A DNA stretch of 64,000 bases. It comes from Sthenelais limicola. Its lineage: Eukaryota; Annelida; Polychaeta; Phyllodocida; Sigalionidae. The stretch's first letter is position 1; the number at the start of each line of letters is the position of its first letter. The stretch covers positions 45,445,744 to 45,509,743 of the forward strand of contig OW804096.1 of assembly GCA_942159475.1 (NCBI GenBank). The letters run 5' to 3'. The notes beneath the pieces were generated by a model, which saw only the letters and a list, made by a program, of their open reading frames with translations, searched no databases and had not been told where the DNA came from. Positions 1,255-64,000 of the stretch are shown piece after piece. The position numbers and the translations under genes are program-made.

Positions 1255-3420
1255 GCTCTTCCCCAACCTTAGACTTTCATTACAAGACACAATACAGTAT
1301 TGATTCATTCTTTGTGCCCGTCGTGTGATGATAAAGTGTATACCCTGGAAGTAAGCAATTGGGTGAAAGAAAAAATGTGGCAGGAAAGAGGGCCTAAACC
1401 AGGAACTAGGAAAGCCGGTACAACTTTGCGCATACACTTCAAGATGCACTGTTACATATTTTGATAGAGTGAGACTTAATTTTTACTATTGTTAACTAAG
1501 AAGGACGAGAATATGTGCTCATTTAGATTTCTGCGTTTCCATCCATAGCTGTTCGAAAGAAAGAAAAACCACCCGTTCTGGTCAGGCAAATGGAAGAAGT
1601 GGAGTGGCCATTGTCCTTTTTTTTTGCATTTCTATTCAGATTGGTGTAATAATGAGTAATGTCTGTGCCTTCGGTAGGGAATCTAATTGAAGTGCTTCCT
1701 CTGTTGATGACGACTGTACAGGAGATAAATGATATCAAGGTATGCACAGGGGACAGTACCCAATGTTAGAACCTGAGGTCATTCTGCCGACAAAGCATGC
1801 TTAAGGAGGCTACCACTTGTACTGTAGATTCGTACATCGTTGTCCCATCTTGGTTATTTAATGGAGAATGTTGGGAAGGCAAACCAGTAAGCTTGAATGC
1901 CTGCCATTTCTTCGTAGGATTGCATCATCTCGAGTCCTATAGTTGTCCAAATTTCATTGTAATCTGAGGTCATGTGCACAGGACTCTCCTCTAAATAATA
2001 TTTTATTTAATATAAGGTATACAATATTGAAAAGGCTTCTCTCAAATGTTTTGTTAACCAAAGTGATTATTGTGATGTGAGAAAGGTTCAATGTTTTGAC
2101 ACAAGGCTGCACATTGTCGATAAACTAAAACTGTACATATACAAATTCAACCGGGCGCCAAGACACATTTGAAATGATCTCTGAATTTGAAAATAGTTTG
2201 CTGGAGAGAGAACGTTTGTGTGCTGGGACCAAACCGCATGGATTGGGCCCAAGTTTGTTGGTTTTGGAAAGAATGCTGAGGACGAAATGGCTGGGTGGGG
2301 TGGGGTTTATGTTAACAGTTTGTGTATGAAATGTTGGAAGATTCCCGCTACTATTCCTTTTAAAGGGATTTAGAGTCAAGGCCAAAGCATCATCTCCCTC
2401 TTGGCTGCTAGGCGCTCCAGATTGACTTTCTTTTGCGAAAAATGCTCCCGTGATTGTTATTATTCAGTCGTGCCATTTTTGACAGAGCCTGCATATTCTA
2501 ATCCTGCGGAGATATTTTTCCTTATACTAGAATCGAGATTTTTTTTTGTGGCAAAGAAGTTAGAAATTCTAAAATTAATAGAATTTATATATTTTCATCA
2601 TTAGAAAGCCTTACAGATTAAATCTTACCCGGCAAGAACCTATATTTAATCCTTATTCTGTGGCGGGCATCTCTTTGTGTTACTTCCTACTTTTGGAATC
2701 GGGACTTACATTCGACCATCTCGGATTTCCTGAATGTGTCGGAATTAATTTGCATGAATAACTATTTTCAAATCGTGCCCATGATAATTCCGTTTTTAGT
2801 TCCAACCGTCTGATTTATATGTGGCAAAAACAAACTACAATCTCCCTTGTCTTAGGTGTAGTATATTCAAAGTTTATTGTAGCTCTGAGAAAGTTGTTTC
2901 TTAATGAGAAAAATAAACCCTTGGAGCCAGAATTATGTGATCCAAATGATTTAAACATGTTCTCATTTGAACGCCTGTAACGAGTGGAAACAAAATTTCT
3001 CCAAGGCTGGTAATTTGTTCTTGAGAGGAAGTCTACGCCAAATCTACTTTTTTTAAATAAAAAAAAAATAGACAATGGGTGATGTTCAAATAGGGATTTA
3101 CCATGTTGGATTGTGTTCGTATAATTATGAAAATAAATAGGAATGGTGAATAAGTGAATATTTTTGATACCCAACAATGTGGGTAGGATCCCGAGAACAT
3201 GTATATGTATTGGTTATGATGGCAACACCCAAGGTAGGGGCGACTGATTTGCAAATGTGTAATTTGTATGAGCTGTGTATCATGATGTGTATTGACCTAA
3301 GATATAATAAGAAAATAATTGCACTCTTCGCTGTAAGTGGCTTTGATGCAATCTGTATGTGTTGCCAATAAATCATTTATATATAAATGTTTATGTTTGT
3401 CTGGTGTTGTTTTTAACCAA
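1255..3420 (+). other. 3' UTR of the CDK12-type gene with a likely polyadenylation site
   Basis: AT-rich sequence without convincing coding potential follows the stop codon. Several AATAAA hexamers occur. The best is at 3367-3372, followed 15-40 bases later by a GT/T-rich stretch, the usual arrangement of an animal poly(A) site. This would give a 3' UTR of about 2.1 kb. Small open frames here on both strands lack splice logic or domain content and were not called. Confidence 0.5.
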
Positions 3421-6400
3421 GACGCTTAACCCATTCTGACGTTATGGATTTGCTGACTGATCTAGTTGTCCAACTATGACAACTCTAATAGTCTACAATA
3501 GGCCATCAGCTGTACCCCAAAAGAGTGATTTTCGTTCCGGATTTTGGGCACTACTTTTTAGTAGCAGATTCCTATTGCTAATACCCTATATTATAATATC
3601 CCAAAAGTTCTCCATGCAATTCCTGCCAGATTTTGAGTAATTGGGCATTGTTTCTGACAGTGCAAAGCCTATGGAGCCAAAGGTCTGGCTTCATTTTAAT
3701 GGTCATTTTAATAGAACATCATTTATTTGATGAATGTTGAATCTTCAGTCATACCAATGATTTTGTTATTGACTCCAGATCTCTGGAATCTTCTGATTCT
3801 GAATCTGCCATTTTTAACTTTCTAACTTTTGAGGAATTTTAGTTCTCCATGTTTGGAAAATAAAATGTAAAATATTAAATAAATAAATAATAACAAATAT
3901 TATCTTCTATATTTAGAATGAAGTGACTAATATCAATCAATAGAGAATACTGTGCCCTAAATTTGTTTTCTTTTGACCTAAGATGTCAGTGCATTATTTT
4001 CAGAGTTATTAGCAAAATGCCTCATAAAGGTCAAGGTCAAAGGTCATTAATCGTGAGGTATTTTGATGGCCTACAACACTTGTTTATTTTTTTTATTAAA
4101 TATTACTTACAATAATATTCCCTTTCCACTCTTCAAAGTCTAAACCCTCAGATTGATAAAAATGGCATGTCAGTGATTAGACGCCTACTTCGCTAATCGG
4201 TTTTCTGGCCTATTCGGTTTTATGACATTTTGCGGTCCTAATGGAATTATAATAGCAGTTTGAAGGGACTTTCAGTTTTGGGCCTAGACTGTTTCCCTCA
4301 TTTTCCACTGAGCTGACACAATTTTTCCGTCTTTTGAAGATTTCAAGAATTCCTGCTTTTCATGCAGGGAATTTGTTGTGGCTATTTTCCGTGCTGTGGT
4401 CAGCTGATTTTTCTAATTTCTTTAAAGTGCATCGTTCCATGAACGTCAACGCTAGATGTGCGGTATTGATTGCTCTTGAAGATGAAATAATTTTTCTCTA
4501 AATCGAACACAGCGGCTAGGTTGTCGATGCAAGTCAACACCAGGGTACCGTTACATCTTATGCGCATACCGTAATCTGAAAATTATTCGAACGAGCATCC
4601 TTATCCGTGTGTAACATCTGCCATTCTTTCGTATGTACACTGCTTGCTAAGGGTGGTACTAGTCTAACTGCTCGCGGTTGGAGATATATTACAGTGGCCA
4701 TGTATCTGGTATCTAGGAAATCTGATCCCTGATTCACAATAAATATGATATTCTGTCAATCCCCAAATGGCAATGACCCGGACGCAACTTGAACAATTGA
4801 TCTATTTTAGAGCCACTTATTGCAATGTACTCAGATCGAGTGCCCCATCTTTTGACGTCTAAAGTTAGTTATTTTCTTCAGGTCTCCTTTTTATGTAGAA
4901 AGACATATCCACAACCATATTGTCGATGCATTTAAATTGCATGTTCTAGTAACTAATGTTTAACATTATAGCAGCTACACCTGTAACAACGTCTCTTTAG
5001 GAATTCAAAACATTAGACTCAACATCATATGTAAAAATTATATTTCGTTTCAAAAGATCATCGAACCCATGGGAACTACAGTAATCGGTAAAATCAACAA
5101 GCTAAAATGGTGAAAAAATATGACTATATACTACTACAGGCAATGTAAAACAACAAACTCAAGAGTAAAGTAATGACCTATAAAGCGATATAAACCTCAG
5201 TAGGAATGGCGGGGCATTCTAAACAATACTTTACTGATGCTGTAAGTAAACGTAAAGTAAAAGCTGTACCCGGGACTTCCCTATTCAAACCACACTTACC
5301 ATGTTCTAATATATATTATCTCAGGGATAGCGCACTATTCCCACACCAAATGTGTCAATAATAAAACAGAAATGGTTACCTGGTTCAAAACATTACGGAG
5401 AAAACACCCAAAAGTGTATTTCAACAGGAAAACATAAGAAAGAATGCTCTAAACAGGTTTACACGAAGCTCCTTTCTACCTTAAATAACAATTCATAGCA
5501 AACATAGTTTATAACTCGAAGGCAATTATAGAAAAAGATACTAGTTAAATATCAGACCATTCAATCGCGGCCTTGAGTGTTGTTAATAGTCTCTGCATTC
5601 ACATTAAACACAGGAATGTTGATATGCCCTGTGATATAATTCCCGCTGAAATATATAATTGTTTTTTGCATGGTAAAAACTTGCAAAACAATTATATTTG
5701 GATTCTAAATGATTTTAAGAACATGATCATTCTCGTAAATAATTTATTTGAGTAAAATTGGGTGTCAATTCCTAGGTGAAGACCTCATTGAATCTTGATA
5801 CCAATTAAGAAGCAACGTGCAGGGATAGGTCTATCATCTGAGTGCACCCAGTGAAAATATTGGCATTTCACTTCTATAAAACCATCTTAATGTTATTATA
5901 CCTGCTAAATATTTCCTGATAATAGCAAAGGAAGGGATTTCTTTACGGAATCATCGGGCTGAAACATGAGTAATGTGCCTCTATAACAATTTGATTGTCA
6001 CGCGAGTTACAGTGATGCATGAAAAGAAAGAAATTCATCACAACATAAGTATGTATATACTATGGATAGCCTAGTACGTTATCCGTATTTAACACATTAT
6101 CAAACTCTTCACAACAATGTGAAGACGCATGTGCAACAATATCTATCGCATATATAATACGCACGGAACATGTTCTCCCAAAGTTGTACCTCTTTCTATT
6201 TATAACTATAGGCCAAATTGTGATAGCAGGATATTTTTGGTGGGTGTCCATGTATAAAGTAACCCCAAAATAAAAAAGAATGAAAAACAAAATTGCCATC
6301 TCGTTTTGGTCTACGTACAGTATAGCAGTGAGATCAGATACAAGGTACAATCTCCTTGGTTTTTAGGCATGACAGAGGGGCGTTTTCTAGAGAAACACAT

Positions 6401-6448
6401 TTTCGTCCCCTATATGGCGTTTGTATTTCCATATTACTATTGCCACTT
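3421..6448. other. Intergenic interval, no gene seen
   Basis: About 3 kb of AT-rich DNA lies between the CDK12-type gene and the converging HMG-box gene on the minus strand. I see no supportable coding exon. The only notable motif is a triple AGGTCA half-site array at 4028-4046. A TTTATT at about 5743 (AATAAA on the minus strand) could serve as poly(A) signal for the HMG-box gene. Confidence 0.5.
4028..4046 (+). promoter_or_regulatory. Triple AGGTCA nuclear-receptor half-site array
   Basis: Three AGGTCA hexamers lie in the same orientation at 4028-4033, 4034-4039 and 4041-4046. The first two abut (DR0) and the last two are spaced by one base (DR1, the RXR/HNF4 type). The central site also reads TCAAGGTCA, the extended monomer site of ERR/SF-1-type receptors. 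Function is inferred from motif knowledge only. Confidence 0.35.
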
Positions 6449-9400
6449 TTAGAAAGTCACATAATCCTTCAGGCTATATTGATCATTGTTACTTTCGGAG
6501 TACTGCGGTCTTCCGTCCATTCCCTGTGTCTTCACAATTTCATCACAATCAGGGTCGTCCTGGTCTTCATCGGCATCGCAGTGATTCTTTGGTGCCCAGT
6601 TCAGTTCGCAATACCTTGATTACAAATTGTCACACAGAATACATCTTTCTATTCGCCATTTGAAATAACAGATATATCATATATTTTAATTTTAAGTGGT
6701 TCGGTTTACTTACGATAAACTGAGAAAGATACCCTTTTGTCTCTCCAAGTTTCAACATTGAATGGATCTCTAAATTGTACCAATATAAATTGCTTGGATT
6801 GAATACGTGCATAAATTAAAATGATTGATATTGAAATTATTCAATCCTACAGTTACTCACCATTTTTCTGGGATGTTACTTGTGCTAATACCATATGGTA
6901 ATTGTCTCCATTTGTCGCACCTGTCGCACTGGACCCATGTGAGGTGAACCAGGGCGTTTTTTCCACGCCGCTTGTACGACCTTTTCAGCTTTTGGATCTG
7001 TTGAGGGTAGGAAACAAAATTGTGTTGGTTCTATTTTTAAATGTATACTTGTGAAGAAGTGTGCATTTCTTTCAGCGTTTTACTACAAGAGTGGAAGAAA
7101 ACATAAAAGGAGAATTTTCCTGGAGCAGAGATATTAAATTCTTGCGTAATTATTGCCTGACCCTGCTAAAAAAAAGACAACTATTAGAAGAACAAATTCC
7201 AGAAGAACGGAGGTATATACCTGTGGAATGATAATAATAATAATACAATATATGGAATCGTATTTACTATTTGCAAAACAGGGGCGTATTCCGTCGTCCA
7301 TCACAGGTGAAAAAGTATACAGTAGTATATCCTTAAATCAATGTTCCATGCGCAATATCTGATATTGGATTAGGAGTGATTGTATTACATGGATATATAA
7401 TATGCATTTTGACATTGAGGTATCAGACAGGCTTTCGTTTTAAACATACATTGAGAAAAGCAGTTTCTTGTGCACAAACAGCTCTCTGATTTGAACATTA
7501 TTTATTCAGTCTGAGTGGTTGTGACCACAGTAACTTTAGCAAGGACATGGGGAATAATTTAAGGCGTTGGGAATTGGGTTCGTACAGACAGCTTGAGTGG
7601 AGCGATTTTCGCTCACCTGCATTTCTCAAACGTGAGCCTGAGGAATACGCCCCTGTTTTGCAGTGAACATGTATGCAGTTGCATGCGTTATTTCTCTAGT
7701 CCCTGGCATCCATTGGAAGATTGAGCAATCAGAAATGGACAACCAAATTTTGAAACGAAATAAAGAATACATTCAATTCAAGGTAACAAACGTACGTAAA
7801 AGCAACGACTCTCTCGTTGGTAAAAGTAAAAAAAAAAAAAAAAGAACTATAACACGAAATGGAACATATGGAAATATGGCAACAATGACGAATAGAATTC
7901 AAAGAACGCTTTAACAATAGTCGATGTATATTATGTGTGCACCTTTATACGTTTAAGTGTATTTCGTGGTCGTAGACGAGAAGGGATAGGCTCCAGTGCT
8001 GCTGGATCTACATATTGCCTTACGCCTCCATAGCGCCATTCTGGATGCTCCATTTTTCTAGCGTTCATTTCTGATTGGAATTCAACTCTAATGCAAACAC
8101 AAGATAAGATATGAAGGGTGTCAGTTTTGTTTTTAAAAAGTAGAGCTATATATGTGTTGATTCAAATTCTAGGCCCATACTTAGATAAGGATAAGGGGGA
8201 AAGGGTGTTTCCTATTTACCCCGCCTACCTAGAAAACCTATACTCCACCTAATCATTTTTGACCTTGCCTAATTTTTTTGGGTGAATTTGTTTTTATCAA
8301 TAAAAGCTAATAAAAGCAGGAAAACAAGTCTTCATAACCAGGAACCATATAAAGGTACAATTCTCATGGGTTTTTTTAAAAAAACAAAACCCAACTGAAC
8401 TATTGTTACAACATAGACATTTATTTTTCGTTCCTGGAAGGAATTATAGAAAAGAAATGGTCCGTACCTAACTTCATTCATTACTGGAGCTATGATTGTT
8501 ATCACCATTGTAATTTCTACCGCTGCACGTCGTCGTTTAGCATTTTAAGTAAAAACGAAATACTTTCATACTTGAAACGCAATTCAGCTAAGAAGCCCAT
8601 TTATTAAAGCTAATAAACTTACTCGTAAGCTTTCTTTTCATCCTCGGGTAGCTTCCTCCACCGTATACCGAGAATCCTGGAGATTTCTCTGTTGTCCATG
8701 CGAGGATGATTGTCTGCTACCTTTTTGCGGAACTTCATGGCAAAGCGGATAAAGCCGTTTTTCGGTCGCTTTAGCGCTTTGGTGTTCCCTGTCGCCTTTT
8801 CTGTGAGAGAAGCGGAGAGTGATGATCGCTATATTAATCTCAAGACTCTCTGCCAAAAATTGTTATAAATAGAGGACGCCATCACAGTACCCTTTTTGAC
8901 GTTGCGTAGCATACCTTTTTTTACTAACAACAAGTCCAATTTAATAGATCAGATGAAATGCGCGAGACTGACTCTTTAAAGGGATTTTTAAAAATTGTAA
9001 TTATAAAAATTGTTATCAAATATCATATAGTCAACAACAAAATAGAAAAGGAAGATCAAACATGACATATATAGCTAGCCATATCTAACTCAAGACAAAA
9101 CGTGTGTGTAGGGGGGGGGGGGGGCATTCAATTACAAGGATCTGGAAATAGAAATAACAACCACCACAACAACAATAGCATCATTTAAAAAAAATAATAA
9201 TAGAATTATCCAGATTAATATTTTTGTTTACCATTATACTCCTTGGCGGTACTCTCCCTCTGGCTTTGTGGGCGTTCTAGGACTTCTCCAGAACCTGAAG
9301 TGTCATTTCCTATTAGTTGCTGATCACGTCTACCGGAATCACTTGAGCAAATCTGGGGTAAGTGAACATCAGAGTAGTTGACACAAGGTAGACAGTCGGC

Positions 9401-13800: not shown

Positions 13801-16157
13801 GGGCCCGTTGTATAAGGGATGCGAGCCTCTCGTAAGTCTTCGTAAGTCTATCGTAAGTTGAAACCATGTGTATAAGCAAAGAAAATCGTATTTTTTTCGT
13901 AATTAGTGTCTCGTATTTCTCTCGCAACTCAATTCCATGTGCATAAGGATTTCAGATTCGTATATTTCTCGCAAATGTCTACGAGCAATTTGAGGTCTGC
14001 GCATCTTTTCGTATGTCCTTGTAACCTGGTTTGGATCAGCTAAAAGACATGAACAGAGAGAGAGAGAGGAAGGGAGGAGAGAGCGGAGATGAAAGAGAAA
14101 TGTGTTAATTAGATTACAGAAGTCTCTTTCTAGAACTAGAGCTACTTGTTTGAATAAATGATATGAATACATGATATTTTGATTTGAGTTGAATAAAGAG
14201 AGGGCAGCAGGGGGGGGGGGGGAAGGAGGAAAGCAAGATTGATAAGGTTAAGTATTTATGTACATATGTATGTATACATACATGTATACGTGCACATGTA
14301 TAATATATGATGATATATTCATTATATAGCTTAATAGGCTATATATATGAATCCAAGCCATCCAGCCAAGAGGGTACTGGAGGAGGTTACTAGATGAGAA
14401 ATACTGGAGGAGGAGGTACTGGAAGAAAGTACTGCAGGAGGTACTGGAGGGGGTACGGGAGGGAGTACCAGAGGGTGTACTGGAAGGGGTACTGGAGGGG
14501 GTACTTTAAGGGGTAATGGAGGGGATACTGGAGGGGGTACTGGAGGGGGTACTTTAAAGGGTAATGGAGGGGATACTGGAGGGGGTACTGGAGGAGGTAC
14601 TGGAGGGGTAATTTAAGGGGTAATGGAGGGGGATACTGGAGGAGGTACTGGAGGTGGTACTGGAGGGGGTACTTTTAGGGGTACTGGAGGTGGTACTGGA
14701 GGTGGTACTGGAGGGGGTACTTTAAGGGGTATGGGAGGGGTTACTGGAGGATGCACTGGAGGGGGTACTGGAGGAGGTACGGGGGTACTGGAACAGGTAC
14801 TGGAGGGTGTACTGGAAGGGGTACTGGAGGAGATACTGGAGGAGGTACTGGAGGAGATACTGGAGGAGGTGAGGTAGTAGTACCTCCTCCAGTAACCCTC
14901 CAGTACCTCCTCCAGTACCTCCTCCAGTACCCCTCCCGTACCTCCTCCAGTACCTCCTCCAGTACCCCTCCAGTACCTCTTCCAGTACCTCCTCCGGTAC
15001 CCCTCCAGTACGTCCTCCAGTACCCCTCCAGTAACCCTCCAGTACCTCCTCCAGTACCTCCTCCAGTACCCCTCCAGTACCTCCTCCAGTACCTCCTCCA
15101 GTACCTCCTCCAGTACCTCCTCCAGTACCTCCTCCAGTACCCCTCCAGTACGTCCTCCAGTACCCCTCCAGTACCTCCTCCAGTGCCTCCTACATTACCC
15201 CTTACAGTGCCTCCTCCAGTACCCCTTACAGTACCTCCTCCATTACCCCTTACAGTGCCTCCTCCAGTACCCCTTACAGTACCTCCTCCAGTTCCCCTTA
15301 CAGTGCCTCCTCCAGTACCCCTTACAGTACCTCCTCCAGTACCCTTACAGTACCTCCTACAGTATCCCTTCAGTACCTCCTCCAGTTCCCCCTCCACTAC
15401 CTTCTCAAGTGTTGCTTCCAGTTGTCCCTCCAATACCTCCTCAATTGCCGCCTCCAGTACCCCCTACATTACTGAAAGAGGAGGAGGATATGTTAATTAA
15501 TGTAGTAGGGTCACCCTGGAAGAACTATGACTATCATAGAATGGAACACCCATTACAAGATGTAAATTCCTGTCAAATTGTATCTTGTTGAACTTGAAAT
15601 AAACAATATACATGTGTATATGTATACATACATGCAATGAGTATATTTGGTAATCCTTAATTCAGACAAAATTAAAATTTTTTTTTGCCTTAATTGTACA
15701 TTTTCTGACGACTTCACCCACATACATCAAACTTACATGTATACAATATACATACACAATTACATAAATACATACATACATGTAGTACATAATACATACA
15801 TGTAGTACATGTATACGTGTACATATATATAAAGAATTAATTAACCATTACGCATTATTATATAAATCATAATAACCATTCATAGCATACCATACATAAT
15901 TGGTTTCTAATGCTATTTGATTCCAAGTTCAAATACCGTAATAAATCTTCAATTCAATCAAAACTTCAGATACGAAAAGATACGAGGAGATGCGATGTGT
16001 TGATTAATACAAAATCACGAAATTGTTGCGAGGGTTGTTATGCAAAGCACCCCTCGTATGTCTGTCATATCTCGTAAGTCCCTCGTAAGTCAAAAAGATG
16101 CGATAGGAAACGAGGAGATGCGAACCACTTACGAGCGTTTTGTTATACAACGGGCCC
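13801..16157. mobile_element. 2.36 kb non-autonomous TIR DNA transposon
   Basis: The ends are inverted copies starting GGGCCCGTTGTATAA (13801 onward and, reversed, ending at 16157). They are flanked on both sides by AAT (13798-13800, 16158-16160), consistent with a 3-bp target duplication. The subterminal 150-300 bp on both sides are rich in CGTAAGT / ACTTACG motifs in inverted arrangement. No transposase ORF is present. The centre is a long palindromic minisatellite (separate entry). The superfamily is uncertain; a 3-bp duplication would suit a PIF/Harbinger-type element. Confidence 0.7.
14370..15470. repeat. Palindromic 12-bp minisatellite (two head-to-head arms)
   Basis: From about 14370 to 14878 the plus strand is a tandem array of 12-bp units of the form GGTACTGGAGGG, with variants such as GGTACTTTAAGG and GGTAATGGAGGG. 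At about 14880 the array flips and continues to about 15470 as CCTCCAGTACCT, the reverse complement. Both arms contain TAAGGGG-type variant units, so they probably arose by inverted duplication of one array. Because 12 is divisible by 3, long open frames appear here on both strands (Gly-Gly-Gly-Thr and Val-Pro-Pro-Pro repeats). They are consequences of the repeat, not genes. Confidence 0.9.
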
Positions 16158-25000: not shown

Positions 25001-28000
25001 GTACCTGCTTCTGGTAATGGCTTAATGGTAACGAGACCCAATCAGAGCCTTGAGGTTAATGCTAATGAGTTTGGAAACGACAATGCTAACAATGGGTATT
25101 GTGGTTACTGTTGCGTATGCAACTGTCCTGACTCTTCCCCTTGGACACTACCTGTTGAACTTGTGCTACCCGAGCTGGTGGCGTGCTTTCATAATAAATT
25201 GGAATCCAACCATTCCACCACTTTCTTCATATTGGCTCTGTGAGAGAGCTGGCTATCTTCTGCAGACAGAGAGGGGGAGGGGGTCCTCAGTCCACACAGC
25301 CCCTGTGCTGCTAGAGTTACATCGCTATCCGGAGCAGCAATTGTGGTTTCTTGATAAACCGTCTCAGTGGTGAGCATAGGTGTCTGATTGGTGGGAGCTG
25401 GTATTCCCAGCTGCATTTTCTCACCATCTACACACGTCTTAATGTCCGTGTGAACTACTCTTACCTCTCCCCTCACAATCTCAGGTACCATTGCATCTGA
25501 TCCAACTCCTCCTGGAGATAATGCCTCTGTCTTTTGCTGGTAGCACCTGCACCTTATCTTAGCTGGAGGAGGTGTAAAAGGAGGAGCAGGAATGGCGTCA
25601 GCTGCTGTGGGTGGTGCATTCCTGAAACCAATTCTAGACAGGTGTTGCTCCTCTGGGGTAGCAACCCTCCCTCTCTGACAGGGACCAACACATCAGACAT
25701 GGCTACGTCCTCTTCCATGCTATCTCCATGTGCTGTCCTCCTATGATTTCTCATATTCTGTTGGCGGCCAGTCCTAAAAATCTTTGCACAGTCTCCACAC
25801 TTTTTCCCCATTGTAAGGTTCTGATGTGTCCTCACGTGTTCAGCTAGTTTGCTGGCACTGGGAAAAGTCCTGAGACACCCTTCATTTTATTCACTTAGTT
25901 TTGCCTTGCTTTTACTTTATTTTGTAATATGTAGCAGGCAGGTCCAATATTAGACACTGTCTATATTTTAACTAGAAATAGATGTACAAATAATAGGGAT
26001 AGCAAAATAAAACAAAATTTAAGGGATATTCGGAAGAGCTGTGACTGTCACAGAGATTATTCCTCTTTCCATAGGTTTCTCTCTTTTAATTCTACATTGT
26101 ATGACAATTGTTGCAAATGTAATATGGAAATAAAAATCTATTATTATTATTATTAATAGCAGGCACAGACCTGCTTCTTTCCCATGTCTCTGAATATTCT
26201 CCCATGACCTCAGGTCTACGCGCTTGAGAATGGCCTTCACAAGATCTGTGTGCTGTTGTTCTTTGCTCCTGGTGTCTGTTCTCTTTTAGGGGTCAAGAGG
26301 TGGTGGTGTAACAGGTCGCCCGTACTGGTCTTCACTTGGTTTTACGGTATCTGGGACCACCCTGGCTCCAACATGAGCTGGTTTCATGATGTCACCGTGG
26401 ACAACCTTTTTTCTCCTTCCTCTCTCCACCCTGTAAACCACATCACCAAATCTCTCTATCACCCACCATGGGCCTGTCCAAAACTTCGTAAACTTTGGTG
26501 ACCTGCCAACATGTTTTATTGGCTGGAATATCCACACACTTTGGCCTTCACTATACTGAACTTCCCGCACATTCATATCACAGTATTCCTTTTGTCTAGC
26601 CCTGGTTGTTTGCATGGCTTCAAAGGCTGTTACATGTGCCTTCTCTAACCTCTCCAGCAGGTGGAGGGCATATCCACTGGTAGTCTCTGCTCGCTGGCCT
26701 GGCGGGTTTCCATAAGCCACATCCCAGGGCATATTCATCTCTCGACCTAGGGCTAAGAAGTTTTGTCTGAAACCTGTGGTTTTGTGTGCTGTTGCACGGT
26801 AAGCACTCGTGACAAAGTTGATGTAATTATCCCAATCTGTGTGTGTTTCATTTACTAGCCCCGACATCATGGTTCCAAGAGTTCTATTAAGCCGCTTGAC
26901 AACCCTGTTTGGAGTGGTATGGAGTGGAGTGGGTGCGCCAAACCCCCAACAATTTGGCTACTTCATTGAATAGGTTGGATTCAAAATTTCGCCCCTGGTC
27001 TGTATGTCAGATAAGTGGTGTTCCATATCTGCATACAACCTCTGTGACTACCACCTCAGCCACTGTTTTAGCTGTGAAGCTGTGAAGCCTCTGGTTGGAG
27101 GTGTCCTCCTCTAACAGGCTGTGCAGGTAGCCACATACAGCCCCACGTCTGTAGAGAGGGCGGGTGAATATGCTAACCTCCTGACCTTATCCAATGTCTC
27201 ATCTCTCCCGAGATGGCCTCCTAAAGGCCTCTCATGCATTTCGACGAGATACTGTGCTGATGGTGGAACGTATGCTCTCCACTCCCTATGACCTCCTGGC
27301 GTCCACCTCAGAACTCCCAGCACGCCTTCCTGATCCAAAGTTCTGTTTGAGCCACAGCCAATCTTTCCCTGGTACTCCCAGGTGGCAGCAAGAAAATATC
27401 TTCCTTTCTTGGTGGCTGTCTGTTGTATGTCTAATTATCACTCTTAAATGAATGCATATTGGTTTTGTCATATATATGAAGGTTTCTAATGACATTTTAT
27501 CGCTATAAAATATAAGGGGGACACATGGAGTGTTTTTTAAAAAAATATCATAAAAGGGAAAAATAATTGATCAACATTTTTTCAGGAAAAAATTTCTAGA
27601 AAATTGAATTCTCCTGATTAAAGCGTGGACTATAGCTCATATGAAAGCTCTCTTTATTTCCTACAAACCATTTAATAAGTACTAGGCTGCTACTATTTGT
27701 TATCTATGAAATATTTCCAGTTGATTGACGATAACAAAATATTTCGAAAAAAACCTTAATTTTTGAGGTATCATATCTCAGTGACTATTAAGGCCAGAGA
27801 CACATGTTATATATGAAACGAAAGAGTATTAAGTCCTCTAAAGATGGTTTAATATGACCTAAGCTCTAGATCTCATATTCCGGTGGTTATAAAATAAAAA
27901 GTGAAAGCTGGTTCCCCTAGTGGCCATTTCGGGAACCTTTGCAGAGGCCCAGGGCACGGGACTTTTTTTTGGTAAATGTCCTCTACCATCCCTACATGAT

Positions 28001-57780: not shown

Positions 57781-58070
57781 TGATATGATCTGAGTAAAGT
57801 AAGGTTTGGTATGCATGTAGGATACCTACTTATTCGTTTTGTTTTCATATGAAAATCGTCAGAGGTGACGGACGTATTTTCTGGAGCTACGCCGATCGCC
57901 GCTCAAACATACCATAACTTTGGACATACCTGACTCATCATTCTATAAAGGACATTGCTAAAATGAGCGAGAGGAGGAGAGCTGAGTGAGTCCAAAATTG
58001 AAACTTTGTTATATGTTTATCACCATATTTGAGCAACATTTCACTGAAAATCACCCAATATCGCCTCAAT

Positions 58071-60023
58071 ATGGAAGGGGATAAACCAGCATTTCTAACC
58101 GGGCAGCAGTTAACGAAAGCTTTCTCACACCCACTAATCCCTCAACTACAAACAACCGTGCAAACACTGTCTAAACCATTGGAAGCTATCCCAACATATG
58201 AACTTTCACAGATATCTGAATATAAGATCGCCGACGAGGATTCGTCTGTAGATTCTCTTAAGAAATCATTGAAATGCGCTCACAGAAATCTTGAACAAGT
58301 GTTAAGTAAAATGGATGATATAGTAGAAAGTGAAAATAACATGAGAGAGGAAGTTATCTCACTGAGAAAACAACTAAGCAAAGTAACTGAAGAAAAGAAT
58401 CAAGATCACGAGAAAATGCTCTCTCTGGAGACTGATCAACGTCGGTCCAATGTCATTATTGCGGGGGTCCCATATGACCGTTCTGAGGATATTGATAGAG
58501 TAGTGTTGCAGGTCTTACGTGTGATTAACCCTAGAATACAAGAGGAAGAGATTTTTCATGCGAGAAGGCTAGGTAAATACCAACTGGGCACAAAACAAAT
58601 TCTAGTGAAGCTTAAGAACGAAGTGGTCCGTAATTACATCTACGACAAACGTTCCAGGCTTAAAGATAATACATCATTCCCCAAAGTGTTCATCAACCCG
58701 GACCTTCCGGAGGAGATTCAAGAAAGAAAGAGTAAACTCCGCACAGTAAAATATCACGCAGAAAAGCAAGACGGAATTGAAGTTGGCAAAATAGTGAGAG
58801 ACAAGATCCAAATAGGAGGAATTTGGTATAGACACGACCAACTGGAGTTGTTGGACGAGGGCCTGAAACTTAGTAATGCGAAGACCAAATGGACCAATAA
58901 AGGCATCTTCTTTCAATCGCAGTACTCCCCACTAAGTAACTTTTACCCCTCACCAATCAAAGTGGATGATCTCGTATTTAACTCGGTTGAGCAGGCCTAC
59001 CACTACGCCAGGGCAAATTTATTAGGAAGTAGGGAAGAAGCCACACGAATCTACCTGGAGAAGGATCCAAGAAGGATCAAAAAGATCGCATCCGAAATTG
59101 AGTCCAATGAGAAGTGGAATAAGGTAAAGATAGCAGTAATGCGTGCTGTGGCAGAAGAGAAATTCGCGCAGAATGAAGATCTGGCCGACTACTTATCTCA
59201 AACAGGCACCACCCCTATATATGAAGCGACCAACGACCGATTCTGGGCGATAGGGTGCAGCCTACAATCTGAACATATTGGCAGTGATAAATACTTAGGT
59301 GACAACCTAATGGGTCAAATATTGGAGGATATAAGATCATCGCTCAACCACTATACCACTGCAGAGGATCGCCTAAAAGTTGTATTCAAAGGGCATGACG
59401 GTAACAAACCAAAGCCAGCAGGTAGCAGCTCACCAAAATTTAATAGGAAAAAAGACAACAAATCTGAAAAAAAGAAATTAAGCACAGCCACAGGAGGGGT
59501 AGCTCATAGTAACTGGACAACCGACCACCAAGAGGACCTTTCTGATGTCGATTTCCCAACCTATGCACTTAGCCAGCAAATGCCACGCTCTATACCAACC
59601 AACCTAGAGGATACAATTCTTGGCCCACGAGGACGGATACGCTCTGAAATGCCCCCACCCTCATCTCCGCAGCAGCAAGCACACACACCACCCAAAGCCA
59701 CCGTTGGGTCAGTCACTATGCAGAGTACGTCCTACGCTGAGAAGTTGACTCCTTCCTTTACACGAACAAGATCTGAATCCGCCGGTAGAGAGGATAAAAT
59801 ACCTAAAAGCTCCAATACTACTCAGGAGCAAGGAAAATCAAAGCCAAATAATTCCGCTACAACCCGCAGCAAAGGACAGCAAAAGAATCCGGCCAAATCA
59901 CAGGTAAAAGCGCAAAAACCTGACAGTAAAACTTCTAATCCTTTAGACGAGATTTCAATTGATAATAGGGTCTCGCTTAGCCACATGTGTAAACTTTCCT
60001 CAAATGGTCTGCTTTCTAGCTAG
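58071..60023 (+). CDS. Retrotransposon ORF1: coiled coil, L1-type RNA-binding module and NADAR domain
   Basis: 650 aa from the ATG at 58071; the frame is open upstream but without another ATG nearby. Residues about 60-121 are heptad-like and charged (coiled coil). Residues about 125-265 match the Transposase_22/L1 ORF1p pattern (QRRSNVIIAGVP, FHARRLGK, ILVKLKN, INPDLPEEIQERKSKL), an RRM-like plus C-terminal RNA-binding module. Residues about 279-424 are a NADAR/YbiA-type domain: SPLSNFYPSP (286-295), VEQAYHYARA (306-315), KFAQNEDL (364-371), GTTPIYEA (379-386), DRFWAIG (389-395) and GDNLMGQILEDIR (410-422). NADAR enzymes cleave N-glycosidic bonds in ribosylated small molecules or ADP-ribosyl-guanosine. 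The tail is Lys/Ser/Pro-rich and probably disordered. The conserved Asp and Trp of the DxxW motif are retained, so activity is plausible. Confidence 0.85.
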   Translation: MEGDKPAFLTGQQLTKAFSHPLIPQLQTTVQTLSKPLEAIPTYELSQISEYKIADEDSSVDSLKKSLKCAHRNLEQVLSKMDDIVESENNMREEVISLRKQLSKVTEEKNQDHEKMLSLETDQRRSNVIIAGVPYDRSEDIDRVVLQVLRVINPRIQEEEIFHARRLGKYQLGTKQILVKLKNEVVRNYIYDKRSRLKDNTSFPKVFINPDLPEEIQERKSKLRTVKYHAEKQDGIEVGKIVRDKIQIGGIWYRHDQLELLDEGLKLSNAKTKWTNKGIFFQSQYSPLSNFYPSPIKVDDLVFNSVEQAYHYARANLLGSREEATRIYLEKDPRRIKKIASEIESNEKWNKVKIAVMRAVAEEKFAQNEDLADYLSQTGTTPIYEATNDRFWAIGCSLQSEHIGSDKYLGDNLMGQILEDIRSSLNHYTTAEDRLKVVFKGHDGNKPKPAGSSSPKFNRKKDNKSEKKKLSTATGGVAHSNWTTDHQEDLSDVDFPTYALSQQMPRSIPTNLEDTILGPRGRIRSEMPPPSSPQQQAHTPPKATVGSVTMQSTSYAEKLTPSFTRTRSESAGREDKIPKSSNTTQEQGKSKPNNSATTRSKGQQKNPAKSQVKAQKPDSKTSNPLDEISIDNRVSLSHMCKLSSNGLLSS

Positions 60024-60067
60024 CATATATATATCTAACTAGAAATATTTCATATATTTCAGCCACA

Positions 60068-60688
60068 ATGAATACTACCACTCTAATTGTAACTGATTCC
60101 CGTGGAAAACGATTACAATCCTTCATTGACTCAGACGACATCTTGGTATACGCATTTAGTGGTGCAAAACTAGAAAGACTCACTTATGAACTGAAAACTC
60201 TAGTTAATAGACACCATCCAACCAACGCCATACTCATCGGCGGAATATGCGACTTCTGTTGTAAAAACCCAGAAACAAAAGAGATAACACTCGCCTCTTG
60301 CCATGAAGGAGACCTAGTGCGGCTAATGAAAACCAAGTACGATCTCTCTCTAGAAAACCTTTACCAGGAACGCCAAATATGCAACATCGCCCTCGGGGGT
60401 CTAATTGGGGTAGATCTAAACAGAGCGAACAGATTACATGACTTCTCACCATACCAAAACATGATTTCCGATGCAATACTCACTATTAATCAGGACCTAA
60501 GAATGTTAAACTCCACTCGAAATATCAATCACCCCCATCTCATCACGAAAGTCCACAAGTATGAGCGCCACAAACCTCGCCACACGTACACAAGACTACC
60601 AGATGGGATACACCTGGACGATTTGGTATTACGGAACTGGTCAAAACAGATTAAACTCTTTCACAATACACCAAGACTAGATATATAA
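60068..60688 (+). CDS. Retrotransposon SGNH/GDSL-like hydrolase ORF
   Basis: 206 aa, 44 bases after ORF1 and in a different frame. TDSRGK at residues 9-14 matches SGNH block I with the nucleophile Ser11. IGGICD at 57-62 corresponds to block III, with the usual Asn replaced. LPDGIHLDD at 177-185 gives the block V D-x-x-H pair (Asp179, His182). Esterase domains of this kind are known in the first ORF of CR1-like elements. Here it is a separate ORF, so translation may need reinitiation or a separate message. Substrate unknown. Confidence 0.75.
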   Translation: MNTTTLIVTDSRGKRLQSFIDSDDILVYAFSGAKLERLTYELKTLVNRHHPTNAILIGGICDFCCKNPETKEITLASCHEGDLVRLMKTKYDLSLENLYQERQICNIALGGLIGVDLNRANRLHDFSPYQNMISDAILTINQDLRMLNSTRNINHPHLITKVHKYERHKPRHTYTRLPDGIHLDDLVLRNWSKQIKLFHNTPRLDI

Positions 60689-61788
60689 TTTCCAATTACT
60701 TAGACTACGATGGGATGATGATAATCATCGCTTATTGTTTGACCTAATGCTGTTGGATTCAATATATATCATACCAGAAACTGAACTAAAAACCACGAGG
60801 TCGCTCTGTTTACTATTGTTTATTTACCAATTACTCTCCACTTGCATATAACCATTGTTTATATTATGATCAACCTAGCTATTTCAGATTGTAAAATGTA
60901 CGCTAGTCTGACGACGATACCTCATCGCTGGCATAAGGTGGGCTTGAAATTCATGTGCTTTCACAATCTGCGGACGAGGTAACACTTGCATTTTGTATGA
61001 TCTCTAATAAACTATAATCATAATGTTGAAATATAAAGTTGACAATTGCTACTTAACAGTATACTGTACATCCACAATTGATTATGTATATATCACTGGG
61101 TTTGGAGATGACAATTTATGTTCAACGATGATAATCATCCGGATCCATCTGAACCTATTGAAAAATTGTAATTTACATGTGCCTAAAATGTTCATTGATT
61201 CAGTATTGGTGGGTCTCCCGCATTGGGGGATTGGCAAAACACAGCGATGATAATCATCAGGTGTGGATCTGATTGACCCAGTCCGAGAGGCCTACCAACA
61301 TATACACTGATTTGTATATACTTGTTTCCATTGACCCTATATGTACTGCTCTCTATTTTTACACAACTGGACAGAGACGCCAACCCAAACCTTGGTACCA
61401 GATTGGACTCTCTATCTAAGCGTGTCACTTGCCTTAAATGTATGTGTACGACCCACACTAGGATTCTCACTGAATGTACTGGTATTTAACTTTATTACCT
61501 TCCCGCATGGCTGGTAAGTCTCTGAATTTTCTATCCTTGGATGATGTATTAGTAATGATGCATTAGTCATGTTGATAACTATAGCAATTAGGAAACCAAG
61601 TAACTATTATGTGGACTGGGGCTCCCACGATGACGATAATCGTTCCCTGGGACCCCAGACCGCCCTCTATTCTATTCCTCTTTTGAGATCTGCTTATACT
61701 ACACCATTGCGATGTATATACTGGTGAATAGGCAATATACTAATGTGACTAAACGACTCTATCAGAGAAGACAGACTAAGCTGTAGGT
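60689..61788 (+). other. 1.1 kb inter-ORF spacer of the retrotransposon
   Basis: Non-coding in its main part. GATGATAATCATC, a near-perfect palindrome, occurs at 60717-60729, 61127-61139 and 61246-61258, with a variant GATGACGATAATCG near 61629. At 61331-61489 a short frame reads LYVLLSIF...LDRDANPNLG and then a Cys/His-rich peptide (CLKCMC..H), resembling the degenerate N-terminus of CR1/L2-type ORF2 proteins but in a different frame from ORF2. Confidence 0.5.
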
Positions 61789-64000
61789 ATGATAACTGAA
61801 ACTAGCTTAGATGGCTGGGATAGTCTTAATAGGCAAACGGGTCTTAAAATTGTACACCTGAATATTCGCTCAATTAATCATAAAATTGACCAGGTTAAAA
61901 GAGATATTTTAAGTGCAGACCTTGATATAATATGTTTCTCAGAAACGTGGTTAAAGAATGATGCGACCCTTGACCTATTAAGTCACCCAAATTATAACCT
62001 TATCAATTATAATCGGTCATCAAATAAACATGGTGGAGGACTATGTGTGTATATTAAGAACGAATATCAGTACACTATCGATTGGGACCTTTCCACTAGT
62101 AATGAAACAATAGAACTACTACACATAACAGTCAAGAAAGATTTTATGAAACCCATACGGCTAGGACTAATTTATCGGCCACCGCAATCGAATATTAATC
62201 AATGTTGTATCAAGCTCAGAGAAATCCTTCAATCCCACGAAGAACTTAAACATCCGGGTACAATAATCCTGGTGGGTGACTTTAATATTGATCTGTGCGA
62301 CAAAAAAGACCCTAAATATAAAATGATAATTGAATTAGCCCAAGATTTTGACCTTAATATTAATAAAAAATTTATTACACGCTATGGGCTCCAGAAAGAT
62401 AGCATATTAGACTACTTTATGTTTAAATGCAATAAAGCTGTCACAGCAGGCACAATAAATTATAACATTTCGGACCACCAAGCCATATATCTTACTATCA
62501 AACATAAGCGTATCAAAAAAACACCAGGGTCGAAAAAGAGAATCAGATCAATGAGAAAATTTAACCAGGAATCAATAAATGCCATCCTTGCAGATATTGA
62601 TTGGGACGATTTTTACGATATTCAGGATGTGGATAGAGCATGGGATAGACTTTTCTCTGTTATATTGGAGATTGCAGATACACTGGCCCCCTGGAAAAAG
62701 ATACACTTTCATAGTGGTAGGCCTGTCTGGTACTCAGTTGAAATTGCGGAGGCCTGTAAGGCTAGAGACGAATTATATAAAACTTCCAATATTACCAAAG
62801 ACTCAAATGATATTCAAGCTGCTAAGAACCAGAGAAATTATGTCAACACTTTATTTAGAAGGGCTAAATCACAATATTACACCACTCTATTAAGAAATAA
62901 TTCTCATAATAGCAAGAAACTTTGGCGCACCTTAGATGAAATTACCTCGAAAAAGAAAAAAGATCTAACTAATATATGTGATGATAATAATATTGAACTA
63001 AATACTTCTGACTCAGCAAATTTCCTAAATGAACATTACTGCACTATTGGCGACAAAATACAAAATAAAATTGAAAAAATCCCTATCACATTGCATGACG
63101 AAATATTAAATGAAGACTGCCCTGCTTTTAACCTGTTGACTAACGAATCCCTCTTAGAACTGATTGCAGATATTGATATCACAAAATCATCTGGATGTAA
63201 AGAAATCTCTGCCAGCATTTATAAAGAATTATTTTACCTCTTATCAAGACAACTACTTCATGTCATGAATACGTCTATCAGGCAAGGTATATTTCCATCA
63301 GCATGGAAAGTGGCTATTGTAAAGCCAATTCCAAAAAAACCCAATACTATCCATCCTGGGGACACCAGGCCTATAGCACTCACTCATATAGGGGGTAAAC
63401 TCCTAGAAAAATTCATCGCAACCCAAATTTGGAACCACTTGGACAATAATAATATCCTAACAGAGCACCAATACGGTTTCCGTAAAAATAGATCCACACA
63501 AGAAGCCCTTTACGAATTGATAACATTAATAAACAAGAATAACAATTCTAACCTTTTGACAGCAGCAACGTTTATAGACTTTAGTAAGGCTTTCGATAGT
63601 GTAAATCACGATATAATTATTAAGAAACTCGAAAAAATTGGCTTTACGGATCTTGCTCTAAGTTGGTTGAAATCATATCTTCACGAAAGATCGCAGTATG
63701 TAAGACTAGGTGACACATATTCTAAACAACTTCAAATAGGCTGTGGTGTCCCCCAAGGATCGATTCTTGGACCTATTATTTACCTAGTATTTTCCAATGA
63801 TATAAATAAGTTGAATTTGTCATGCAGATTTTTATTGTACGCTGACGACACTGTTTTGTATACTACCGGCGAGAACATTTCTGACCTTGAAAAAAGTATG
63901 AACACGGATCTGGACAAATTTTATAAATGGTCAACTGCTAATAAAATACTCATAAATGCCAATAAAACTAAAACAATCCTGTTTGGAGAAAAAAGAAAGA
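61789..64000 (+). CDS. Retrotransposon ORF2: endonuclease and reverse transcriptase (partial, runs off the edge)
   Basis: The frame opens at ATG 61789, just after an in-frame TAA, and stays open for 737 codons. Residues 20-235 are an APE-type endonuclease: HLNIRSI (N25), SETWL with the catalytic Glu52, GDFNID (D164, N166) and SDH at 228-230. The RT follows: PIPKKPNTIHPGDTRPIAL, YGFRKNRST, DFSKAFDSVNH (Asp597), GCGVPQGSILGP and YADD (684-687). All catalytic residues expected in the visible part are present. The RT thumb and 3' UTR are outside the window. The protein nicks target DNA and primes reverse transcription there. Confidence 0.92.
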   Translation, partial: MITETSLDGWDSLNRQTGLKIVHLNIRSINHKIDQVKRDILSADLDIICFSETWLKNDATLDLLSHPNYNLINYNRSSNKHGGGLCVYIKNEYQYTIDWDLSTSNETIELLHITVKKDFMKPIRLGLIYRPPQSNINQCCIKLREILQSHEELKHPGTIILVGDFNIDLCDKKDPKYKMIIELAQDFDLNINKKFITRYGLQKDSILDYFMFKCNKAVTAGTINYNISDHQAIYLTIKHKRIKKTPGSKKRIRSMRKFNQESINAILADIDWDDFYDIQDVDRAWDRLFSVILEIADTLAPWKKIHFHSGRPVWYSVEIAEACKARDELYKTSNITKDSNDIQAAKNQRNYVNTLFRRAKSQYYTTLLRNNSHNSKKLWRTLDEITSKKKKDLTNICDDNNIELNTSDSANFLNEHYCTIGDKIQNKIEKIPITLHDEILNEDCPAFNLLTNESLLELIADIDITKSSGCKEISASIYKELFYLLSRQLLHVMNTSIRQGIFPSAWKVAIVKPIPKKPNTIHPGDTRPIALTHIGGKLLEKFIATQIWNHLDNNNILTEHQYGFRKNRSTQEALYELITLINKNNNSNLLTAATFIDFSKAFDSVNHDIIIKKLEKIGFTDLALSWLKSYLHERSQYVRLGDTYSKQLQIGCGVPQGSILGPIIYLVFSNDINKLNLSCRFLLYADDTVLYTTGENISDLEKSMNTDLDKFYKWSTANKILINANKTKTILFGEKRK

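Follow-up and report, generated by a model that had tools for sequence, protein, structure and literature searches.

NADAR domains have been described in retrotransposons before. In the Pacific oyster (Crassostrea gigas), ORF1 of several families of Tx1 LINEs appears to contain a NADAR domain of the YbiA family (PMC12477816, 2025). In the same source, NADAR is also reported for Gypsy elements of Ectocarpus, and a role in the processing of RNA intermediates is suggested. The presence of a NADAR domain in a LINE ORF1 is thus already known from PMC12477816, which is prior art for the core observation of this work.

NADARs, including those of the YbiA type, were shown to remove ADP-ribose from guanosine (PMC11543638, PMC11125620). 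NADARs encoded outside DarT operons were active in vitro and were inefficient antitoxins against DarT1, and the role of animal NADARs was called unclear (PMC11125620). An activity that ADP-ribosylates DNA at the N2 position of guanine was reported for six edible clams, from one of which CARP-1 was cloned (PMC11209040); CARP-1 has been proposed to counter DNA viruses and/or to regulate NAD+ (PMC8053099). Invertebrate positive-strand RNA viruses also carry NADAR (PMC9503650). For LINEs of the CR1/L2 lineage, a survey of 448 elements lists RRM, CCHC, PHD, esterase, zinc finger/leucine zipper, coiled coil and Tnp22 as domains (PMC4120745).

The present analysis concerns a stretch of 64,000 nucleotides from the annelid Sthenelais limicola, referred to as the window, for which an original prediction made from the sequence had placed a NADAR domain inside ORF1 of an intact non-LTR retrotransposon. 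In the literature searched (outside Repbase, preprints and subscription journals), no earlier account was found of NADAR in non-L1 LINEs, of NADAR alongside an SGNH ORF or of a selection analysis for it, and PMC12477816 was the sole paper on the term NADAR domain with transposable elements in its title. NADAR is not mentioned in the gastropod LINE paper PMC11203168.

Organization of the element and its ORFs

The LINE of the window consists of the following features:

57855..64000, + strand: visible part of the LINE, with its start set by homology with the copies L010 and L011
58071..60023, + strand: ORF1, 650 aa, with coiled coil, RRM, CTD, NADAR and disordered tail in this order (open frame, Pfam, AlphaFold, fold searches)
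58248..58439, + strand: coiled-coil helix, ORF1 residues 60-123 (AlphaFold model)
58443..58880, + strand: RRM and CTD, ORF1 residues 125-270, with the fold of human LINE-1 ORF1p
58881..59351, + strand: NADAR domain, ORF1 residues 271-427
59352..60020, + strand: low-complexity tail of ORF1 (low pLDDT, higher omega)
60068..60688, + strand: third ORF, 206 aa, SGNH-hydrolase fold (AlphaFold, Foldseek, alignment of 10)
60689..61788, + strand: spacer separating the SGNH ORF from ORF2, in which GATGATAATCATC occurs three times (pattern count)
61789..64000, + strand: ORF2, cut by the window end, 951 aa in full (Pfam on the complete copy L009)

The window copy extends to about G000:C3:45510709, with a total length of roughly 7.1 kb and a 3' A-tail. 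In L009, the genome copy covering the window LINE, position 2855 corresponds to window position 57855, and homology with L010 and L011 was found through L009:9966. In ungapped alignment, L010 shares 99.12% of 3865 bases and 99.29% of 2966 bases with the window copy, and L011 is 98.54% identical to it over 7113 bases. Because it is near-identical to these two copies, the window copy is considered to be young. Candidate target-site duplications of 5 bases, ATGAA for L009 and ATCAA for L011, are weak and were read by eye from the copy alignment. L010 contains about 1.2 kb of extra sequence at about 5810-7034, between the SGNH ORF and ORF2, in comparison to the window copy and L011. The frame of ORF1 is open as predicted, running uninterrupted from the ATG at 58071 to the stop at 60023. 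The designation of the element as intact could also be retained: ORF2 exits the window at position 64000, yet a complete frame of 951 aa is present in L009.

Elsewhere in the window, a frame of 194 aa at 26286-26870 on the minus strand resembles, judged by eye, the terminal part of an integrase from an LTR retrotransposon. At 14741-15500, both strands contain long open frames with PPVP and GTGGG-type repeats, which probably represent a tandem repeat and not genes.

The predicted NADAR domain inside ORF1 was identified by Pfam (105.9 bits with a cut-off of 35.1, E 3.5e-30; residues 281-425 counted from the ATG, which are 295-439 in a TTG-started frame), by NCBIfam and by sequence matches to the PDB entries 8bau and 2b3w (YbiA). 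The NCBIfam model TIGR02464 for the YbiA-type N-glycosidase, which carries the name riboflavin-intermediate N-glycosidase, matches ORF1 with 104 bits at a cut-off of 73.7, and the anti-phage NADAR model NF053876 stayed below its cut-off on ORF1 (47.1 versus 240 bits). In the predicted structure and in fold searches, the YbiA fold is present. Together with a glutamate at both positions 43 and 125, profiles and fold all fit the NADAR superfamily and its YbiA subfamily, so that this assignment of the ORF1 domain is confirmed.

The residues of the active site were mapped onto the P. nicotianae NADAR, with residue roles taken from PMC11543638. ORF1 residues E307, R314, K337, W349, E385, D389 and W392 correspond to E43, K50, K75, W89, E125, D130 and W133 of that protein, in which E43 and E125 hold the distal ribose (PMC11543638). 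In a table of 50 LINE NADAR rows (46 LINE rows and four of L1/Tx1 type, near-copies counted; 47 of the rows are distinct, since the genome copies L003/L013, L005/L012 and L008/L014 were each read twice), E43, E125, K75, W89 and W133 were kept in 50/50 rows and D130 in 48/50. The catalytic E43 together with a glutamate at position 125 is the criterion for the YbiA subfamily according to PMC11125620 and PMC11543638, and position 125 was Glu, not Asp or His, in every row. Position 50 is occupied by Lys in 27, Arg in 21, Gln in one and Glu in one of the 50 rows (Lys or Arg in 48), and the window clade has Arg. For the E. coli C7 NADAR, the exchange K95R, which corresponds to position 50, was reported to keep hydrolysis in vitro and to lose cell rescue (PMC11543638). 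The LINE NADARs do not retain R79, Y84 and D86, which make contact on the adenosine side. The expectation that the motif residues are kept was thus borne out for the ribose cleft across the LINE NADAR rows. A conserved ribose-cutting half combined with an adenosine-reading half that is not conserved is compatible with an N-ribosyl hydrolase whose substrate has changed or is less strictly defined, and with R79, Y84 and D86 lost, the substrate may differ from ADP-ribose as bound in 8bau.

For the N-terminal part of ORF1, the coiled coil, RRM and CTD fold of a Type II (L1-like) ORF1 is present in the AlphaFold model and in fold searches, with block means of the pLDDT of 83-94 for residues 91-420. 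The L1-type RNA-binding module proposed earlier is thereby confirmed by fold and not by Pfam, in which Transposase_22 was not matched at E up to 10 in the window region 58413-58890; a match to this family is usual, not defining, for a Type II ORF1. The tail of ORF1 has a pLDDT mostly below 45.

The original prediction did not include the third ORF (60068-60688), which starts 44 bases 3' of the ORF1 stop. Pfam gave nothing for this ORF up to an E of 0.1, and its AlphaFold model has a pLDDT of 87.6. Foldseek related this model to sialate O-acetylesterase and GDSL lipases, with a best E of 5.3e-8. In the ten aligned SGNH ORFs, Ser11, Gly32, Asp179 and His182 are invariant, and the block-III Asn of the oxyanion hole is replaced by Cys61, likewise in 10/10. 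Because of this Cys61, the third ORF is described as a predicted SGNH fold with a divergent oxyanion hole and is not filed as a proven esterase. In the spacer that follows, the near-palindrome GATGATAATCATC occurs at 60717, 61127 and 61246, with a variant near 61628, by pattern count. It was also found three times each in L010 and L011, twice in L014 and once in L015. A search of L009 against Rfam gave no match at E up to 1.

For the full 951-aa ORF2 of L009, Pfam identified Exo_endo_phos (2.3e-9) and RVT_1 (6.4e-37), and neither RNase H nor zf-RVT was listed at E up to 0.01. ORF2 is therefore predicted to be composed of an apurinic-type endonuclease and a reverse transcriptase. For the part of ORF2 within the window, the match to the chain 8c8j (core of human L1 ORF2p) was confined to the RT region (47.7 bits, 6.4e-12), and for the full ORF2 no L1 chain was listed among the structure matches at E up to 1e-3. 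As relatedness to L1 ORF2p over its length was not found, the window ORF2 is not of the L1/Tx1 type. The ORF2 of L047 in the same genome, with 1266 aa, matched human LINE-1 ORF2p (9k6g) over residues 12-988 with an E of about 1e-75, and also the LTX endonuclease 2v0r; LTX is presumably Tx1L. The combination that marks the Jockey superfamily, an APE endonuclease and RT without RNase H, was found for the window ORF2, and the motifs of its RT appear to resemble those of this superfamily (CR1/L2 and kin). The window element is an APE-type, non-L1 LINE, which probably belongs to the Jockey superfamily and is CR1/L2-like.

Distribution, selection and origin of the fusion

In a search of the genome (1.13 Gb) for NADAR, the best 150 of 5561 candidates were scored. 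Since these matches are the best-scoring ones, the share of intact frames among them is biased upward: 148/150 were without an internal stop, and 86 of the 150 sit in frames of at least 600 aa. The first reading covered forty loci that contain a NADAR frame, three of them being the repeat reads named above. Three clades were distinguished. Clade A, which includes the window, consists of ORF1, SGNH ORF and ORF2, with the SGNH ORF present in 9/9 ten-kb loci. Clade B consists of ORF1 and ORF2, with no DGxH frame between them in 4/4 ten-kb loci. For clade C, an SGNH ORF was identified in L012, L024 and L025 and a DGxH frame in L027; of the clade C loci L033 and L039, ORF1 alone was read. The other NADAR loci comprise a further type (L017, L029), a stretch cut by an edge (L028) and a non-LINE element (L026).

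The stretch L026 (G000:C1:66980187-66990186) is Polinton/adinto-like by eye and contains a separate NADAR ORF of 162 aa at 2947-3432 (Pfam 2e-30). It also contains a frame of 1440 aa, DNA polymerase B-like by eye and unmatched in Pfam up to an E of 0.01, and an ATPase-like frame of 245 aa, with a match to Pox_A32 below the cut-off. NADAR frames of 162 aa occur three times among the best 150 of the 5561 candidates. A clade A element in L014 (G000:C5:11690073-11700072) has repetitive flanks on both sides, with frames of ISDISYSGN-type repeats, and the stretch includes 200 N.

The ORF2s of clades A, B and C can be aligned along their whole length of about 950 aa, with 26-34% identity, and their best alignment to the ORF2 of L047 covers the RT core only. 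For 13 elements, the tree of RRM-CTD-NADAR was congruent with that of ORF2 for groups A, B and C, and also within B and C; the two trees conflict inside clade A, at weakly supported branches. By this congruence, ORF1 with its NADAR has moved along with ORF2 inside these groups.

A second NADAR set of the same genome was found in a search with the related ENA protein P0007, which is known without its ORF2 (best 69 of 5807 candidates). For L047, the NADAR ORF1 was seen as a search match just upstream of ORF2. In L042, L043 and L045, NADAR ORF1s of the L1-type set were read, each with an endonuclease frame behind it. In one genome, L1/Tx1-type and non-L1 LINEs both carry ORF1s composed of coiled coil, RRM, CTD and NADAR. 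The same fusion in further copies and LINE families, which had been proposed as a check, was therefore present, as identified by genome searches and the reading of loci.

Selection on the NADAR segment, suspected from its open frame and motifs, was analysed by codon models. For six clade A elements covering ORF1, the SGNH ORF and most of ORF2, omega was 0.024 for NADAR and 0.025 for RRM and CTD. It was 0.033 for both the RT core and the SGNH ORF, 0.041 for the endonuclease and 0.126 for the tail of ORF1. The median amino-acid identity in this set was 73% for NADAR, 72% for the RT core, 63% for RRM and CTD, 70% for the SGNH ORF and 42% for the tail. The set comprises 6/9 ten-kb clade A loci, leaving out the near-copies L010 and L011 and the broken ORF2 of L023. 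For 13 ORF1s, drawn from 18 clade A loci after removal of the near-copies L010 and L011, the short frames L002 and L007, and L008 (the same locus as L014), omega was 0.033 for NADAR, 0.030 for the coiled coil, 0.040 for RRM and CTD and 0.185 for the tail. Since dS is saturated between families and absolute omega values are rough, what counts is that NADAR differs from the tail and resembles the RT, rather than the values themselves. Pairwise dN/dS by NG86 between families left 1 to 7 usable pairs out of 66-78 in each segment and was of no use. With an omega of 0.024-0.033, like that of the RT and below that of the tail, NADAR is held by selection about as strictly as the element's own reverse transcriptase, in agreement with the original prediction.

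The junction from CTD to NADAR lies at a matching position in 28 rows, as judged by eye. A NADAR tree was calculated from 45 rows, 28 of LINEs and 17 others, and another NADAR set comprised 55 rows; the rows were hand-picked from loci and from the best 120 of 169 search matches. In the free tree, the NADARs of L1-type LINEs and of other LINEs stood apart, and clade C was placed beside bacterial-type rows with weak support. A single common LINE NADAR clade was not rejected (AU p 0.303). One fusion with subsequent exchange of ORF1 between LINE groups is favoured; such an exchange has a precedent in the reticulate evolution of ORF1 described for CR1 and L2 LINEs (PMC4120745). Two independent captures at the same point, by L1-type and by other LINEs, are the less favoured alternative.

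In a search with RRM-CTD only, 86 of the best 150 of 2838 candidates were in frames of at least 575 aa and 42 in frames below 400 aa. Four of the latter were read (L049-L052), and among these no relative lacking NADAR was seen: the NADAR sequence was present in 4/4, broken by a stop, frame change or deletion. On the minus strand at G000:C4:124994489-124994965, an RRM-CTD match lies in an open frame of 1449 aa, twice the usual length of ORF1, which may be a further fusion. A spurious or chance ORF was rejected by the Pfam match, the fold match and purifying selection, and a recent private chimera of the window copy by the many genome copies, the near-identical L010 and L011, the congruent trees and the RRM-CTD search. 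The prediction had named as evidence against itself a missing profile match, or domain-less copies with a chimeric junction and no purifying selection; neither was encountered in the material examined.

Possible functions of the NADAR domain

LINE-1 ORF1p coats the element RNA in cis. By analogy, the coiled coil, RRM and CTD of the window ORF1 would coat the element's own RNA, and the NADAR, as a fixed C-terminal domain of ORF1p, would be tethered near the ribonucleoprotein. There it would hydrolyse the N-glycosidic ribosyl bond of a substrate close by, most likely ADP-ribose on guanine of the element RNA or the new cDNA, and through the removal of ADP-ribose the template would stay readable in spite of host ADP-ribosyltransferases. 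This removal of guanine ADP-ribose from element RNA or cDNA by the ORF1p-tethered NADAR, directed against host ADP-ribosyltransferases, is considered the best overall explanation, with a probability of roughly 0.45. For its parts, the strength differs: the LINE NADAR is very probably active as an enzyme, its action on nucleic-acid ADP-ribose has somewhat less than an even chance, and the proposal that the activity answers a host defence is tentative. The counter-defence reading would tie together the guanosine chemistry of NADARs, CARP-1 of clams and the NADARs of RNA viruses. Several points speak against the preferred reading: the Arg at position 50 in the window clade, in view of the K95R result, the poor antitoxin performance against DarT1 of NADARs from outside DarT operons, the loss of R79, Y84 and D86, and the riboflavin-intermediate name of the matched model TIGR02464. 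Of the interpretation given in the original prediction, the real NADAR, its ribose-cleft residues, purifying selection and the fusion in other copies and families were upheld; a status as first report was not, since PMC12477816 precedes it.

Alternatively, the NADAR may process element RNA at its ends or at its caps, the target being an NAD or ADP-ribose cap or ADP-ribose from RNA repair; this would be a housekeeping function within retrotransposition instead of counter-defence and is unlikely. Such a role would suit a NADAR tethered to an RNA-binding module, and it is in line with the RNA-intermediate processing suggested in PMC12477816 and with the association of NADAR with RNA repair (PMC9503650). 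However, the nucleic-acid chemistry demonstrated for NADARs in PMC11543638 takes place at guanine bases, and no ligase, kinase or Nudix family was found in Pfam scans of the element ORFs. The destruction of soluble ADP-ribose derivatives, as alarm signals, near the particles of the element is improbable: for RNA viruses of animals macromolecular targets were favoured, even though soluble signals were proposed for viral NADARs, those of phage above all (PMC9503650), and an RNA-coating protein would be an odd site for a sink of soluble signals.

The ribose-cleft glutamates, invariant in 50/50 rows and across groups with 28-35% identity to the window NADAR, speak against a mere binding module for nucleic acid, ADP-ribosylated protein or a host factor, in which catalysis would be irrelevant. 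Such a module has little probability, although the contacts to ADP-ribose are only partly kept, with R79, Y84 and D86 lost, and enzyme folds are reused without catalysis, for example in the SGNH protein Oskar (PMC3905857). A NADAR captured once and carried along without function is very improbable, given the RT-like omega of 0.024-0.033 and the retention of NADAR in the LINE groups examined. No positive evidence was found for it; broken copies such as L049-L052 would agree with it and are expected of old insertions anyway.

The preferred reading, removal of guanine ADP-ribose by the tethered NADAR, can be extended to an animal counterpart of the DarT-NADAR conflict known from bacteria and phages. 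ORF1p would then be a self-tethered eraser of guanine ADP-ribose, and RRM-CTD-NADAR would have been passed between LINE superfamilies because hosts with guanine-modifying ADP-ribosyltransferases of the CARP-1 type direct nucleic-acid ADP-ribosylation at mobile elements; this extension is doubtful. If the NADAR is active, some animal LINEs would carry their own enzyme for nucleic-acid repair or counter-defence, and nucleic-acid ADP-ribosylation would be a candidate restriction pathway for retrotransposons. It would also imply an in vivo role for animal NADARs and for CARP-1-like guanine ADP-ribosyltransferases.

Comparison with known systems

The LINEs of PMC12477816 and the window LINE share a YbiA-family NADAR in ORF1. 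The former are Tx1 elements of the L1 superfamily, whereas the window ORF2 is not of the L1/Tx1 type and an additional SGNH ORF is present. Selection and active site were determined for the window LINE; in the text consulted of PMC12477816, a mechanism is merely suggested and a selection test was not found.

With the Type II (L1-like) ORF1s of LINEs from the CR1/L2 lineage (Metcalfe and Casane, PMC4120745), the window element has in common a coiled coil, RRM and CTD in a non-L1 LINE. In that paper, neither the term NADAR domain nor its older name DUF1768 occurs. The ORF1p esterase of ZfL2-1 (PMC3905857) is a further case of an SGNH fold in a LINE, and the catalytic Ser, Asp and His are kept in both. 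In contrast to ZfL2-1, the window LINE encodes its SGNH fold in an ORF of its own, which follows a complete L1-type ORF1, and this fold has Cys in place of the block-III Asn. A setting of genetic conflict is described for NADARs from RNA viruses of invertebrates and from the DarTG1 toxin-antitoxin pairs (PMC9503650, PMC11543638) and may be shared by the window LINE. The NADARs of those systems are part of a polyprotein or stand alone, whereas the NADAR of the window is fused to the RNA-coating protein of a retrotransposon.
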